A stretch of 64,000 nucleotides of DNA, taken from the NCBI GenBank assembly GCA_001281695.1, contig LJIE01000001.1, positions 2,246,586 to 2,310,585 on the forward strand. Reading direction: 5' to 3'. Shown here piece after piece: positions 35,632 to 41,725 of the stretch (its first letter is position 1; every line of letters starts with the position of its first letter). The notes below the pieces were generated by a model. That model worked only from the letters and a program-made list of their open reading frames with translations, had not been told where the DNA came from and made no database searches. The translations under genes were made by a program, and so were the position numbers. The DNA comes from a bacterium 336/3 (GTDB lineage Bacteria; Bacteroidota; Bacteroidia; Cytophagales; Thermonemataceae).

Positions 35632-37020
35632 ATGAACTACGATATTATTGTAATAGGGAGTGGACCTGGAGGTTATGTGGCTGCTATCAGAGCCTCACAA
35701 CTTGGTATGAAAACTGCTGTAGTAGAGACTGCCGAATTGGGTGGTATTTGCTTAAATTGGGGTTGTATTCCTACTAAAGCTTTGTTAAAATCTGCTCAAG
35801 TTTTTGAATATGTAAAACATGCAAAAGATTATGGTATTTCGGTAGGTGATGCTCAAATAGATTTTAAAGGAATGATAGGACGTAGTAGAGATGTGGCCAA
35901 TGGTATGAGCAAAGGAATTCAGTTTTTGTTTAAGAAAAATAAAATTGATTTGGTAGAAGGTTTTGGAAAACTTACCAAAGATAAAAAAGTAGAAGTAACA
36001 GCTAAGGATGGTAGCAAAAAAGTTATCGAAGCAAAACATATTATTTTAGCAACAGGCGGTAGAGCAAGAGAATTACCTCATATCAAGATAGATAACCAAA
36101 AAATTATTGGTTATAGAAAAGCAATGGTGATGGAAACGCAACCCAAGAAAATGGTTGTAATGGGTTCTGGAGCAATTGGTGTAGAATTTGCGTATTTCTA
36201 TAACTCAATTGGTACGGATGTAACAATTGTAGAATTTATGCCTCGTATTGTACCTGTAGAAGATGAAGACATTTCTAAACAACTGGAAAAATCTTATAAA
36301 AAAGCAGGTATTAAAATCATGACATCTTCTTCTGTTGAAGCTGTAGATACTTCAGGAGCAGGTTGTAAGGTTACTGTAAAAACTCCAACAGGTACAGAAG
36401 TTATAGAATGTGATGTGGTGCTTTCAGCAGTAGGGGTAACAACTAATTTGGAAGGAATCGGTTTAGAAGAGTTGGGCGTTAAAACTGAAAAAGGTAAAGT
36501 AATTGTAGATGGTTATAGCAGAACTAATATAGAAGGTGTTTATGCTATTGGAGATATTACACAGGGACAAGCACTTGCTCACGTAGCTTCTGCTGAGGGT
36601 ATTATTTGTGTAGAGAACATTGCAGGTCTACATCCACACCCTTTAAATTACAATAACATACCAGGTTGTACATATTGCCAGCCAGAGATTGCTTCTGTGG
36701 GACTTACAGAGGCTCAAGCCAAAGAACAAGGCTATGAGATTAAAGTAGGTAAATTCCCTTTCACAGCATCGGGTAAGGCAAGTGCAGGAGGTGTAAAAGA
36801 TGGGTTTGTGAAAGTAATTTTTGATGCTAAATATGGTGAGTGGTTAGGTTGCCATATGATTGGAGCTAATGTAACAGAAATGATTGCTGAGGCTGTGGTA
36901 GCTCGTAATTTGGAAACTACAGGACACGAAATCATCAAATCTGTTCACCCACACCCAACCATGAGTGAAGCCATTATGGAGGCTGTGGCTGATGCCTATG
37001 GCGAGGTAATTCACTTATAG
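35632..37020 (+). CDS. lpdA: Dihydrolipoyl dehydrogenase
   Basis: 462 residues, typical length. E3 subunit of pyruvate and 2-oxoglutarate dehydrogenase complexes or the glycine cleavage system; oxidises dihydrolipoamide with NAD+. FAD-binding GxGxxG at 9-14, redox cysteines C40 and C45 in GGICLNWGCIPTKALL, NAD motif MGSGAIGVEFAYFYNSIG near 180, and catalytic dyad H441-E446 in HPHPTMSE. No E1/E2 gene is adjacent, so its complex cannot be told from context. A strong terminator follows. Confidence 0.96.
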   Translation: MNYDIIVIGSGPGGYVAAIRASQLGMKTAVVETAELGGICLNWGCIPTKALLKSAQVFEYVKHAKDYGISVGDAQIDFKGMIGRSRDVANGMSKGIQFLFKKNKIDLVEGFGKLTKDKKVEVTAKDGSKKVIEAKHIILATGGRARELPHIKIDNQKIIGYRKAMVMETQPKKMVVMGSGAIGVEFAYFYNSIGTDVTIVEFMPRIVPVEDEDISKQLEKSYKKAGIKIMTSSSVEAVDTSGAGCKVTVKTPTGTEVIECDVVLSAVGVTTNLEGIGLEELGVKTEKGKVIVDGYSRTNIEGVYAIGDITQGQALAHVASAEGIICVENIAGLHPHPLNYNNIPGCTYCQPEIASVGLTEAQAKEQGYEIKVGKFPFTASGKASAGGVKDGFVKVIFDAKYGEWLGCHMIGANVTEMIAEAVVARNLETTGHEIIKSVHPHPTMSEAIMEAVADAYGEVIHL

Positions 37021-37053
37021 AATATCAGAAATTAGACATGAGATAAAAAATAT

Positions 37054-37085
37054 AAAAGCCCTGAATAATTCAGGGCTTTTGTTAC
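37054..37085. terminator. Bidirectional terminator
   Basis: 12-bp stem AAAAGCCCTGAA (37054-37065) / TTCAGGGCTTTT (37069-37080), TAA loop. It ends lpdA on the plus strand and, from the minus strand, the AbiJ-like gene whose stop is at 37082. Confidence 0.88.
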
Positions 37086-38194
37086 TTTAATCCATATTTT
37101 ATAAATAAATTGGAGAAAAATGATTCTATCATAAACTTCGGATTTTCGCTATTCATAAATTCATATCCTCCAAATCTATAAACCTCATATCCTTTTAATT
37201 TCAATAATCTATCTTCTTTAACCATCTCTGCATAGTTTTTAGGAGAAACTTCATTACTATTTATATTTATTGTATAGTGCTGTTTACCATCTATTTCAAG
37301 AATGATTCGGATATTATTGGGTAATAAAAGTAAAAAATCTATTCTTTGCTGAGAAACCCTTTTAACACCAGATAATTCTTTTATTGTTTTAGGGTCGTAA
37401 TGCAAATAGACTTGTGGGATTAAAGCTGGAAGTTTTTCTTGTAAGATATCTTTAAACACTTTAAAATAGTTAAAAAATAGAAATTTTTCTGACTCATTTT
37501 CATTTAGGGAATCTTCTAATCTTTTATATAAATCACGTTCGTAGTCTATATCTTTATCAAAAAGTCCTTGATTTTTGTTTTTCCACCAATCTATTAAAGT
37601 TTTCCAAGTTAATCCTTGAAAATCATTTATTTGCTCATCATATATCAGACAAAATTCTCCATTTTTTACAATCTCTATTTCATTATCAAGTGTGTCTGTT
37701 AAAATAATTTCAGGTTTTAATCCATTAGAAGCAAATATGATATTTTTAGGAGATTTAGTACCCAACTGCTGGGCTATTTTTCGAATTTTATAAACAGGAT
37801 AACCAGAAATCATCTCACTAATAGCCATTTCATAATTATCACCTTTAAGATGTTTGTTAATTCGTATCACATTCTTGTTAATATCTTCTAAATCAAAACG
37901 AACATCTGGATGAATAAAAGTTTCTAAGAACTTAATAAATATCTCATCATAAGAATTAATCAAATCAAAATATTCAAAATATAAATATCGTAAAGTAAAA
38001 TCATTATTATTTATCATATGCTGCCAAATATCACCTCTGGCTGTATTAAAACGAGAATCTTGAGAAGAAATTGAATCTAAACTCCATATTTTATCTAAAA
38101 AGGATATAATATCAAGTTGTCCTTCAATTTGAACATTCTCAATTAAATCATTTAAAAGTTTACGTTTGGTAATAGTTGTAAATATACTATTCAT
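37082..38194 (-). CDS. AbiJ-N-terminal-domain protein fused to a PD-(D/E)xK-type nuclease (candidate phage defence)
   Basis: 370 residues, soluble. Residues about 1-140 have the pattern of AbiJ-type N-terminal domains (SISSQDSRFNTARGDIWQHMINNND at 41-65, FLETFIHPDVRFD near 89-101, SGYPVYKIRKI at 130-140). Residues about 145-205 match a middle segment common in that group (PKNIIFASNGLKPEIILTD, GLTWKTLIDWW). Residues about 260-350 are a DUF559/Vsr-like nuclease: D286 in QRIDFLLLLP, E300-IDGK304-QHY as the catalytic E-x-K signature, and a final MVKEDRLLKLKGYEVYRFGG. Such combinations are seen in abortive-infection proteins. Its ATG overlaps the end of a radical SAM gene by 8 bp. Confidence 0.7.
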   Translation of the reverse strand: MNSIFTTITKRKLLNDLIENVQIEGQLDIISFLDKIWSLDSISSQDSRFNTARGDIWQHMINNNDFTLRYLYFEYFDLINSYDEIFIKFLETFIHPDVRFDLEDINKNVIRINKHLKGDNYEMAISEMISGYPVYKIRKIAQQLGTKSPKNIIFASNGLKPEIILTDTLDNEIEIVKNGEFCLIYDEQINDFQGLTWKTLIDWWKNKNQGLFDKDIDYERDLYKRLEDSLNENESEKFLFFNYFKVFKDILQEKLPALIPQVYLHYDPKTIKELSGVKRVSQQRIDFLLLLPNNIRIILEIDGKQHYTININSNEVSPKNYAEMVKEDRLLKLKGYEVYRFGGYEFMNSENPKFMIESFFSNLFIKYGLK

Positions 38195-39224
38195 CTTTTT
38201 TTAGAACTTTTTTTAATTCTTCTTCAAAAGGCATTTTGAGGATTTTTTTGTAGCGTTTGCATCCAGAGCAGGGAATGTCTTTTCTATCAGGTTGTTCACC
38301 TAAAAGCATTTTTTTGGCATAAGTATATTTTTCAGACTCTAAAAGATTTTCTAAGCCTTCTTCAAATACATTTCCAAAATCGCCAAAATGATTTACACAA
38401 CAACCCAGCAGTTTTCCATCCCAATTGATTTGTGGGGCTGTCCAGAGTTGCAGGCAAGCAGGAGAGTAGAATTTTTGTTCATTGGCTTCATAATCTTGGA
38501 TATAGGCCACGCCCAAACCTGTTTGTTCAGCTACTTTTTCAGGGTTCTGGATAGCAAATTTATTGGGGGCATAATTGAGTTTGGCTTTAAAGCCCATTCT
38601 GAGTTTTTGAGCTAATTCTTTGGCTTTTTCAAGCTCGTGTTCGTTGTGTCCGAATACAATAAACTGCCATTTAAGTTTAGGGAAACGACTTTTATAAACG
38701 CTTTTATAATGATTTATTTTCTCAATATTTTCAATGACCTTATTGAAATCTCCACCAATACGATAAATTTGATAGGTTTCTTGCGAAGCCCCATCAATTG
38801 AAACTTTCATTTTTTCGAACTCATATTTGACAAGGGCTTCAGCTACATTATCAGGCAGATGATTGAGATTTGTGCCATTAAGGGCAGTTAGTTTGATACC
38901 TTTTTCGTATGAAATTCGCAGAATATCTACAATTTCAGGGTTTAAAAAGAGTTCACCATAATTGGAAAGCTCAATTTTTTTGATTTGTGGGTTTTTATCT
39001 AAAAAATTAATAAAATCTTCTAAACGCAAATGTCCCCAGCCCACAGAAGAGTGCTTGCGATGGTAATGTGTACCTGTGAGGCACAAAGGGCATTTGAGCT
39101 GACATTTAGAAGATACTTCCAAACGAACATTTTCTATTTGTTTCCAATGAGCCAATGAAATATCCTTGAAACTGTCTTTCAGTTTTTGAGCAAAAGGAAT
39201 ATTTTGAAGCCATTTGGAAAGCAT
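38187..39224 (-). CDS. Radical SAM/SPASM-domain protein
   Basis: 345 residues, cytosolic. Radical SAM motif C41-QLK-C45-PL-C48 binds the 4Fe-4S cluster that cleaves S-adenosylmethionine. The TIM-barrel body follows (IKKIELSNYGELFLNPEIVDIL, KVSIDGASQETY, GEFNK-like segment). Extra C-terminal cysteines C257, C275, C276, C319 and C322 form a SPASM-type auxiliary cluster (LLGCCVNHFGDFGNV). Such enzymes modify peptides or sugars; substrate unknown here. It overlaps the AbiJ-nuclease gene by 8 bp (translational coupling likely) and is preceded by pheA at 44 bp. The sequence is not of the viperin type. Confidence 0.88.
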   Translation of the reverse strand: MLSKWLQNIPFAQKLKDSFKDISLAHWKQIENVRLEVSSKCQLKCPLCLTGTHYHRKHSSVGWGHLRLEDFINFLDKNPQIKKIELSNYGELFLNPEIVDILRISYEKGIKLTALNGTNLNHLPDNVAEALVKYEFEKMKVSIDGASQETYQIYRIGGDFNKVIENIEKINHYKSVYKSRFPKLKWQFIVFGHNEHELEKAKELAQKLRMGFKAKLNYAPNKFAIQNPEKVAEQTGLGVAYIQDYEANEQKFYSPACLQLWTAPQINWDGKLLGCCVNHFGDFGNVFEEGLENLLESEKYTYAKKMLLGEQPDRKDIPCSGCKRYKKILKMPFEEELKKVLKKDE

Positions 39225-39268
39225 TTTTTATAAGTCTTGTGTCTGAACTCTTATATCTTTTGTTTGTT

Positions 39269-40348
39269 TTAACACAATTTCACATAACTACCCAAACAAC
39301 GAATTTGCCCTTCGTATTTTTGTAGAATTCGCTGTACCTGAGTGTCCTCAATGTGTCCCTCAAAATCTACATAAAACCAATAATTGAACTTGGCTTCGTT
39401 TTTACGTGGGTGACTTTCTATTTTATTCAAATTGATGCCAAAACGATCAAATTCTTGTAAAAATACAGCCAAACTACCAGCCTTATCAGGTAAATCTACA
39501 ATAAGAGTAGTTTTGTCATCACCACTTTTAGCATTTTTGAAATCTTTTGAAATAATCAGAAAACGGGTAGTATTGTGAGCATTGTCTTCAATATTTTCAA
39601 ATAAAATAGGTAAATCATATATTTTCGCTGCAATATGTGAACACAAGGCAGCAGAATAAGGCTCATTAGCAGCCAATTCAGCAGCTTTGGAGGTAGATTC
39701 GACATGAATCAGTTCCGCATGACTAAAATAATCATTCAAAAACTTTCGACATTGTCTGAAAGCTATTTCACGAGAGTATATTTTCTTGATTTCTTTGGTT
39801 TGTTCGGTATGGCTTGCCAAAGAGAAATGAATAGACATGGGTATTTCAGCCACGATTTTTACATCTGAGCTATTGAGCAAATCTACCGTTTCAATCACTG
39901 TTCCTTCTTGATTGTTTTCTATAGGTACAACCCCAAAACGAACTCTTTGTGTATCTACGCTTTCAAAAACAGCTTTGATGGTAGAAAGAGGCATATATTC
40001 GCTCATAGCTCCAAATCTGCTTTCGGCAGCCTGATGCGAAAAACTTCCTTCAGGTCCTAAAAAAGCCACTTTTTCGGGCATTTCGATGGTACGAGCTACT
40101 GCAAAAATTTCTAAAAAAATCGCATCAATAGCAGAACTATTCAGTAAACCTACACTCTGCGAAGCCAAACGATTTAAAATAGATCTTTCTCGTTCAGGTC
40201 TGTAAATGAGGGCATTGTTAGATTTTTTGAGTTCCCCAATCTGCTTGACCACATCCATACGTTCGTTTAGGAGAGTAAGTAGTTGGCTATCAATATGATC
40301 TATTTGATTTCTAAGATTTTGTAAGGCTGTTTCTAAAGAATTTTGCAT
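39269..40348 (-). CDS. pheA: Bifunctional chorismate mutase/prephenate dehydratase
   Basis: 359 residues. N-terminal AroQ-type chorismate mutase at about 1-90 (NQIDHIDSQLLTLLNERMDVVKQIGELKK), then prephenate dehydratase at about 95-270 (AFLGPEGSFSHQAAESRFG, GVVPIENNQEGTVIET, and the TTRFLII segment) and a C-terminal ACT domain from about 280 (TTLIVDLPDKAGSLAVFLQE, NLNKIESHPRK) giving phenylalanine feedback inhibition. Converts chorismate to phenylpyruvate in the cytosol. The 3' end is followed by the radical SAM gene. Confidence 0.95.
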   Translation of the reverse strand: MQNSLETALQNLRNQIDHIDSQLLTLLNERMDVVKQIGELKKSNNALIYRPERERSILNRLASQSVGLLNSSAIDAIFLEIFAVARTIEMPEKVAFLGPEGSFSHQAAESRFGAMSEYMPLSTIKAVFESVDTQRVRFGVVPIENNQEGTVIETVDLLNSSDVKIVAEIPMSIHFSLASHTEQTKEIKKIYSREIAFRQCRKFLNDYFSHAELIHVESTSKAAELAANEPYSAALCSHIAAKIYDLPILFENIEDNAHNTTRFLIISKDFKNAKSGDDKTTLIVDLPDKAGSLAVFLQEFDRFGINLNKIESHPRKNEAKFNYWFYVDFEGHIEDTQVQRILQKYEGQIRCLGSYVKLC

Positions 40349-40417
40349 ATATTACAATTATCAATAAATAATTTAGCATTTACCACTTATAATTTATCAC
40401 TCATCATTTATAATTCA

Positions 40418-41725
40418 TCACTTCTTCTTATTTACCCTTTTCTTTTGTTTTTCTCTTTTTTGTTTTTGTTTGAGTTTAGGATTTTTTTTCTCATGGAAAG
40501 CTCCCTTAAACTCTGGATTGTCTTTCTTTTTCTGGTCGTCTATTTCTTTGGCAATAGCCTGACTTTCATCAAATAGAGTGTCATAAACATTTACTGCAGA
40601 TGGAATACGTACTCTTGGTATTTCCATACGTATAATTTCCTCAATTTTAGCTACATGATACATTTCGGCTTCATTAGCAAAAGTAAACGCATAACCCTGA
40701 TTTTTAGCTCTTCCTGTTCTGCCAATTCGGTGTACATACTCTTCATATAAAATGGGCACATCAAAATTAATGACATGGCTTACCAAACTCACATCAATAC
40801 CTCTTGCAGCTACATCAGTGGCTACTAAAATCTGAATATTATCATTTTTGAAACTATCAATGGCATTAAGTCTTGCATTTTGGTCTTTGTTGGCATGGAT
40901 CACCCGAACAGCACCTTCACCAAATTTTCTTTCAATAAACTTATAGATATTATTGGCATTATCTTTTGTTTTGGTAAAAACAATAACCTTGTTAAATTCT
41001 TCTGTTTTTGAAAGAAAATAGCCTAAAAGCTCAATTTTAGTTCTAAAATTAGGGACTTCATAAAGAGCCTGCTCAATAGTTTCAGCAGTGGTAGCTTGAG
41101 GAGTTACTTCTACCTGAACAGGAAACTCTAAAAACTCTTCAGAAAGTTTCAAGACTTTTTCGGGCATAGTAGCTGAAAAAAGTAAATTTTGGCGTTTTTT
41201 AGAAGGGATTACTTCTAAAATTTTACGAATTTGAGGCATAAAACCCATATCCATCATTTTGTCAGCTTCATCCAATACAAGTGTTTGTATTTGTTTGACA
41301 ATCAGTTCTCCAGATAAATAAATATCCATAAACCTGCCAGGAGTAGCTACCAAAATATCAACACCTTTATTGACTTCTTCTAACTGAGATTTGATACCCA
41401 CACCACCATAGGTTGCCACCATACGTAAATCTGTGTATTTACCCAGTTCATTAATATTTTTATGAATTTGGATACAAAGTTCTCGTGTGGGAGCAAGAAT
41501 CAAGGCTCTTGGGGCTGAACCTTGAGCATATTTCACTTTCATGAGTAGTGGAAGGGTATAAGCTGCTGTTTTGCCTGTACCTGTTTGGGCTATACCCAAT
41601 ACATCATGTCCTGCCAAAACCAACGGAATAGCTTTTTCCTGAATTTCAGTAGGATTTTGGTAGCCAAGCTCTTCAATAGCACTGAGGAGTTGTTTATTGA
41701 GTTTGAATTTTTCAAAATTTTCCAT
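40418..41725 (-). CDS. DEAD-box RNA helicase (RhlE-like)
   Basis: 435 residues. Q motif at the start (FEKFKLNKQLLSAIEELGYQNPTEIQ), Walker A AQTGTGKT at 46-53, motif II VLDEADKM near 150, motif III SAT near 182, and the C-terminal RecA domain with VATDVAARGIDV and HRIGRTGRA. The tail (KKNPKLKQKQKREKQKKRVNKKK) is basic, as in RhlE/CsdA-type helicases that remodel RNA in ribosome assembly or cold adaptation. Its stop is 69 bp upstream of the pheA start and its start is 6 bp from the ArnT-like gene stop. Confidence 0.93.
   Translation of the reverse strand: MENFEKFKLNKQLLSAIEELGYQNPTEIQEKAIPLVLAGHDVLGIAQTGTGKTAAYTLPLLMKVKYAQGSAPRALILAPTRELCIQIHKNINELGKYTDLRMVATYGGVGIKSQLEEVNKGVDILVATPGRFMDIYLSGELIVKQIQTLVLDEADKMMDMGFMPQIRKILEVIPSKKRQNLLFSATMPEKVLKLSEEFLEFPVQVEVTPQATTAETIEQALYEVPNFRTKIELLGYFLSKTEEFNKVIVFTKTKDNANNIYKFIERKFGEGAVRVIHANKDQNARLNAIDSFKNDNIQILVATDVAARGIDVSLVSHVINFDVPILYEEYVHRIGRTGRAKNQGYAFTFANEAEMYHVAKIEEIIRMEIPRVRIPSAVNVYDTLFDESQAIAKEIDDQKKKDNPEFKGAFHEKKNPKLKQKQKREKQKKRVNKKK

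Follow-up and report, generated by a model that had tools for sequence, protein, structure and literature searches.

An AbiJ_NTD3 nuclease gene that overlaps a radical SAM/SPASM gene in the Bacteroidota strain 336/3 is probably a stand-alone, horizontally acquired defence-type gene

Introduction

The closest described relatives of the locus studied here are proteins in which an AbiJ-type N-terminal domain is fused to an effector. Anantharaman et al. (2013; PMC3710099) list AbiJ-NTD3 joined to AbiJ/HEPN, DUF2726-type REase, TIR, ABC ATPase and kinase domains. The AbiJ-NTD3-REase proteins of that text have an AbiJ_NTD3 domain followed by a nuclease of the restriction-endonuclease fold and a presumed role in defence, as does the protein described below; the REase described there is DUF2726-type, whereas ours is slightly nearer to DUF559 (14.3 bits over residues 291–349, cut-off 20.6) than to DUF2726 (12.9 bits, cut-off 24.7), both scores being sub-threshold. 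AbiJ itself, as presented in the same paper, combines an AbiJ-type N-terminal domain with a HEPN RNase; our protein shares the former, but none of its six Pfam matches with an E-value of 10 or less is to a HEPN family. The nuclease is a further member of an architecture already described in 2013 (PMC3710099).

The window analysed here is the whole 64,000-nucleotide stretch of contig LJIE01000001.1 of strain 336/3. A preliminary description of it had pointed to a radical SAM/SPASM gene overlapping the nuclease gene, and had suggested that the radical SAM enzyme might be the partner of the nuclease in defence. Here we compare both genes with their relatives and ask how well that partnership stands up.

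Results

Both genes lie where they had first been placed, on the same strand of the window: the radical SAM/SPASM gene at 38187..39224 (-), encoding 345 aa, and the AbiJ_NTD3 plus PD-(D/E)xK-type nuclease gene at 37082..38194 (-), encoding 370 aa. The reported 8-bp overlap is also there, the start codon of the nuclease lying inside the final eight bases of the radical SAM gene (ATGAATAG, 38187..38194 (-)), and co-translation of the two genes is plausible judging from this overlap. Upstream on the same strand are genes for a chorismate mutase/prephenate dehydratase, a DEAD-box helicase and a PMT-like membrane transferase, and the nuclease gene is the last of this run. A terminator-like hairpin with a 12-bp stem and a T tail lies just past its stop codon (37054..37080 (-)). 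It is the sole such site in 36950–40500, where shuffled sequence gives a mean of 1.7 sites, so that it is the position of the hairpin that matters and not the count, which is not above chance. Pfam recognised no defence gene among ten nearby genes in the window.

The 345-aa protein has the full set of radical SAM/SPASM features, as had been proposed: a radical SAM core (PF04055, 36.5 bits, cut-off 29.5), a SPASM domain (PF13186, 34.3 bits, cut-off 21.5) and, in the sequence itself, the CX3CX2C cluster motif at C41/C45/C48. Core and SPASM domain are shared with the radical SAM/SPASM maturases, but the best NCBIfam match, TIGR04317, reaches only 86.7 bits against a cut-off of 380, and the protein stays far under the cut-offs among the 25 families listed of the 38 matched. 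The match to viperin (pVip, PADLOC; 31.8 bits) covers residues 35–197 only, which is the shared radical SAM core; the window protein also has a C-terminal SPASM domain. Sequence searches against solved structures returned no match at a useful E-value for this protein, for the nuclease or for the nuclease family profile.

The AbiJ-type N-terminus of the nuclease is confirmed by a strong match to PF18860 (AbiJ_NTD3) over residues 6–169, at 37688..38179 (-), with an E-value of 3.2e-54 and 183.3 bits against a cut-off of 32.5. The PADLOC candidate-defence model PDC-M01A also matches, at E 4.2e-22 over residues 28–142; here model positions 33–148 of 639 align to the AbiJ_NTD3 part, whereas the remainder of the model is unmatched by the window protein. 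Structure alignments of residues 6–145 to CARD/death-domain and Cas13a proteins (Z 3.7–4.7) were set aside, as they probably reflect helical arrangement only.

The C-terminal nuclease domain, whose core spans approximately residues 286–370 (37085..37339 (-)), is less easily named. No NCBIfam or PHROGs family matches the window nuclease, and when seven homologues were compared with the DUF559 cut-off of 20.6 bits, one (L022) reached 20.8, one (L024) was printed as equal to the cut-off and the other five scored 12.2–19.6. Because these profile scores are weak, the nuclease reading is built on conservation across the family: it is the residues and the family that bear out an REase-type acidic active site, not the window protein's own profile score. 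Specifically, all 24 aligned proteins share D286, E300, D302, G303 and H306, while residue 304 is K in 20 of them, S in two, A in one and R in one. In a broader alignment of 13 proteins, read by eye, seven have K at this position and the other six have Q, M, S or A. The DUF559/Vsr-like signature originally proposed, D286/E300/K304, thus survives in its two acidic residues and in the probable nuclease assignment; K304 does not belong among the conserved catalytic residues, and given the invariant residues around it the triad is corrected to D...E-x-D-G-x-x-H. We take this motif to be an active site of the DUF559/Vsr-like style, and the C-terminus is probably a DUF559/Vsr-like PD-(D/E)xK-type domain.

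Structure predictions point the same way. Two models of the nuclease were obtained, the first with a mean pLDDT of 67.7 and the second with 81.2 and a pTM of 0.57. The best alignment of the second model (VIA-align) is to AbaSI (Z 5.7, rmsd 3.9 over 111 residues, model residues 215–370), with PvuRts1I close to it (Z 5.6, rmsd 4.3 over 107 residues, model residues 217–370), every Z being below 8, a level too low for trusting any single match. Lower-ranked entries include Can2/Cdn1, TnsA, Hjc, MunI and VRR-NUC, mixed with mitoribosomal and other chains; these five and others of the structures listed are PD-(D/E)xK enzymes. Foldseek found nothing at E ≤ 0.001 for either model. The alignments of these predicted structures support a PD-(D/E)xK fold without proving it.

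To judge the pairing we used 38 nuclease loci: nine genomic (eight from Bacilli, plus L033), ten plasmid-borne, picked from the 20 best of 104 plasmid matches, and 19 viral. Three further loci (L030–L032), in which AbiJ_NTD3 is fused to TIR, were excluded, and two of the 38 correspond to part of the window protein: L095 to its NTD3 segment alone, L094 chiefly to its C-terminal part. A radical SAM gene was found alongside none of the 38, combining annotation, PF04055, a local HMM and a motif scan. The overlap, whose conservation the preliminary description had named as a check, recurs at 0 of the 38 loci, and the homologues there never lie beside a radical SAM gene, an outcome that the same description had said would refute the idea; six genomes with an orthologue of the radical SAM gene, described below, have no nuclease. 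Both results count against the proposed partnership.

The separate searches agree. Annotation of nine plasmid stretches, whose gene table is incomplete (L043 being unannotated), includes no radical SAM gene. PF04055 is matched in two of the ten whole plasmid records, where the only such gene of NZ_CP109010.1 lies about 57 kb from the nuclease and the nearest one of NZ_CP108777.1 about 247 kb from it, and in none of the 19 viral records, some of which are short fragments. The nine genomic loci were checked with a local HMM, for which the window radical SAM protein was aligned with its six orthologues. Run on 2177 stop-to-stop frames of at least 70 aa covering all 38 loci, this HMM gave no credible radical SAM frame. 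A lone weak match, to a frame of 208 aa at L023 (13.7 bits, E 0.0025), was rejected, as this frame has no Pfam match. No CX3CX2C motif turned up in a set of 372 pruned ORFs. Note that the pruned set missed at least one true gene, the nuclease of L043, while the six-frame scan picks up the nuclease at all 38 loci and is therefore the more trustworthy. When checked, the HMM gave 13 matches in 13 loci (L009–L021), but the same protein had served to locate these loci, so they are not an independent control.

The radical SAM gene itself has a different distribution. Some relative of its protein occurs in 51 of 59 genomes, own genome included, and a distant radical SAM/SPASM relative (about 25–32% identity) is common to most genomes of the order sampled, making it a widely kept enzyme. 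Clear orthologues, with 59–72% identity, are found besides the own genome in G002, G003, G004, G007, G021 and G037, and the nuclease is present in 0 of these six. The 12.5–19 kb regions around the six orthologues share no adjacent gene with one another or with the window (one of them, L048, breaks off about 190 bp beyond its orthologue); other cross-matches in these regions are few, weak (23–40%) and located elsewhere. To find an undisturbed version of the site, lpd and the pheA-like gene were sought in nine genomes, own included, and at the sites found in relatives (eight lpd and three pheA loci, with flanks of at most 1.5 kb, some at contig edges) the radical SAM orthologue adjoins none; with flanks this short they offer no clean empty site for comparison. 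The C-terminus of the window protein aligns normally with those of the orthologues. With an orthologue but no nuclease in six genomes, and no conserved neighbour, the radical SAM gene seems to be a resident one that has no fixed partner, and the nuclease a sporadic newcomer.

Among the 59 relatives only the own genome has the nuclease; in the phylum sample of 395 genomes it occurs in two, the own genome and G352 (37% identity). PF18860 itself occurs in two of 296 genomes, own included, one of them above the cut-off. A scan of genome contigs elsewhere gave 11 loci, three sharing AbiJ_NTD3 only and eight from Paenibacillus and related Bacilli; with 48–51% identity the latter are the closest homologues found, and the Bacilli are presumably a phylum different from that of the window. 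Plasmid records gave 104 matches, in hosts including Exiguobacterium, Rhizobium/Agrobacterium and Streptomyces, and 44 of the matches have at least 80% query coverage; viral contigs gave 19 homologues, and phage records three matches, none reaching 80% coverage. The Bacilli, plasmid and viral homologues are mostly about 440–490 aa long and about 34–51% identical along most of the window protein, but most of those aligned bear an extra N-terminal segment of about 90 residues, and the 38 examined are without a radical SAM neighbour.

The base composition of the nuclease gene also stands out: its GC content of 25.8% (17.5% at third positions) is the lowest among 14 window genes compared, the radical SAM gene having 35.3% and lpd 37.7%. 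Since two genes about 2.6–5 kb away also have a GC content of about 29%, this is only mild support for transfer. Sporadic in its distribution, the nuclease gene was probably acquired horizontally.

The window copy differs from most of its homologues at the N-terminus: of the 23 homologues aligned, 22 carry 91 or more residues ahead of a position that five residues precede in the window protein (homologue starts are from annotation-free ORFs, the viral ones from the earliest start codon). Two sense codons ahead of the window ATG there is a stop in the same frame, so its short start is genuine. One nuclease of 377 aa (L035) is also without the extension, as are the NTD3-TIR proteins L030 and L031. 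A search of the own genome for the extension sequence gave no match, in a search run without a positive control. In most homologues the segment of about 90 residues before AbiJ_NTD3 is itself conserved (for example L024, 5722–6000), and it matches no Pfam family above cut-off in the seven nuclease proteins scanned.

Of 83 columns with 95% or higher conservation among the other proteins, the window protein further breaks 11. Several of the changes are conservative (K/R, I/L, I/M, I/V), others not. At the same columns L033 breaks 15 and L094 breaks 16, while the remaining 21 of the other 23 proteins break 0–5. Given the 11 broken columns and the absent extension the window nuclease could be impaired; on sequence grounds it may be either functional or worn.

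The homologues also allow a view of the company that this family keeps. Among the AbiJ_NTD3-TIR proteins, L031 and L032 are clear and L030 has a weak TIR_2 match (20 bits, cut-off 28); all three share AbiJ_NTD3 with the window protein but have a TIR effector where it has a nuclease, and the L031 and L032 examples are consistent with a swappable effector. Defence-type genes occur beside the homologue in four of nine annotated plasmid stretches: a Lit-family gene and DUF1837/helicase (L036), AbiEi with a sub-threshold AbiEii match (L040), SAVED (L041), and AbiJ-NTD4 with SIR2 (L042). The other five have no recognised defence gene, although one of them (L039) has a large helicase. A Schlafen AlbA_2 gene lies near the homologue of L023.

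Two further arrangements were seen among the longest ORFs of these loci. At L036 (104–5062) and L039 (1–5086) a large DEAD/DEAH helicase gene lies about 100–130 bp upstream of the nuclease gene on the same strand, accompanied at L036 by a DUF1837 gene. At 13 of the 19 viral loci (L080–L084 and L086–L093) the AbiJ_NTD3-nuclease gene is immediately preceded by a gene for an HTH/S24 CI-like repressor, with a small overlap in several; the repressors are 75–100% identical to that of L082. This prophage cassette of repressor and nuclease may serve in superinfection defence.

Discussion

The explanation that best accommodates these observations, with a probability of about 0.78, is that the nuclease gene stands alone: a defence-type gene of the AbiJ-NTD3-REase kind, probably acquired horizontally, that now closes a same-strand run of genes which includes the radical SAM gene. 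From this position it would borrow the transcription of the radical SAM gene, and perhaps its translation through the overlap. AbiJ_NTD3 would probably act as a sensing or targeting module that detects a phage component or an infection state; this would release the C-terminal PD-(D/E)xK nuclease (D286, E300, D302, H306) to cut DNA, which would block phage growth or kill the cell. This reading as a sensor with a DNA-cutting effector follows the proposal of Anantharaman et al. (2013; PMC3710099). The radical SAM enzyme would have a role of its own, unrelated to the nuclease, and the overlap seems to have arisen from where the two genes happen to lie, and not to mark a new defence system.

A lineage-specific two-gene defence system, with the radical SAM enzyme modifying the nuclease or the signal that controls it, would account for the 8-bp overlap on the same strand and for the intact reading frames of both genes. 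Against it, no radical SAM gene was found alongside 38 nuclease homologues, six relatives keep the radical SAM orthologue without the nuclease, and the normal alignment of the radical SAM C-terminus reveals nothing there that is specific to the nuclease context. We regard it as very improbable. The pairing could instead be imagined as a very recent unit, the radical SAM enzyme having been recruited in this lineage as modifier or activator of the shortened nuclease in place of a lost N-terminal control segment, but the overlap is the sole point in favour of such a local recruitment, which we find scarcely credible. The open-access literature searched, with most subscription papers lying outside it, contained no report of a pair of AbiJ-type nuclease and radical SAM enzyme and no experimental test of the AbiJ_NTD3-nuclease family, and the accessible part of a paper that mentions both AbiJ and radical SAM (PMC10853773) describes no such pair.

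More serious is the possibility that the window copy is a decaying, 5′-truncated one, which lost the N-terminal extension on inserting downstream of the radical SAM gene and now encodes a non-functional protein. The extension carried by 22 of 23 aligned homologues, its lack of a match in the own genome (in that search without a positive control) and the 11 altered columns of 83 would all fit. Against this, the 370-codon frame is open and retains all catalytic-type residues, the extension is not universal (being absent from L035, L030 and L031), and the 11 changes include several conservative ones, though others are not conservative. On balance we consider such decay unlikely, and prefer the stand-alone defence-type gene.

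The result removes a false lead toward a radical SAM-dependent defence system. For the AbiJ_NTD3-nuclease family, it suggests that the residues worth mutating are D286, E300, D302 and H306, rather than K304, and it places these proteins as a sizeable mobile family, found on plasmids of Bacillota, Actinomycetota and Pseudomonadota and on viral contigs.
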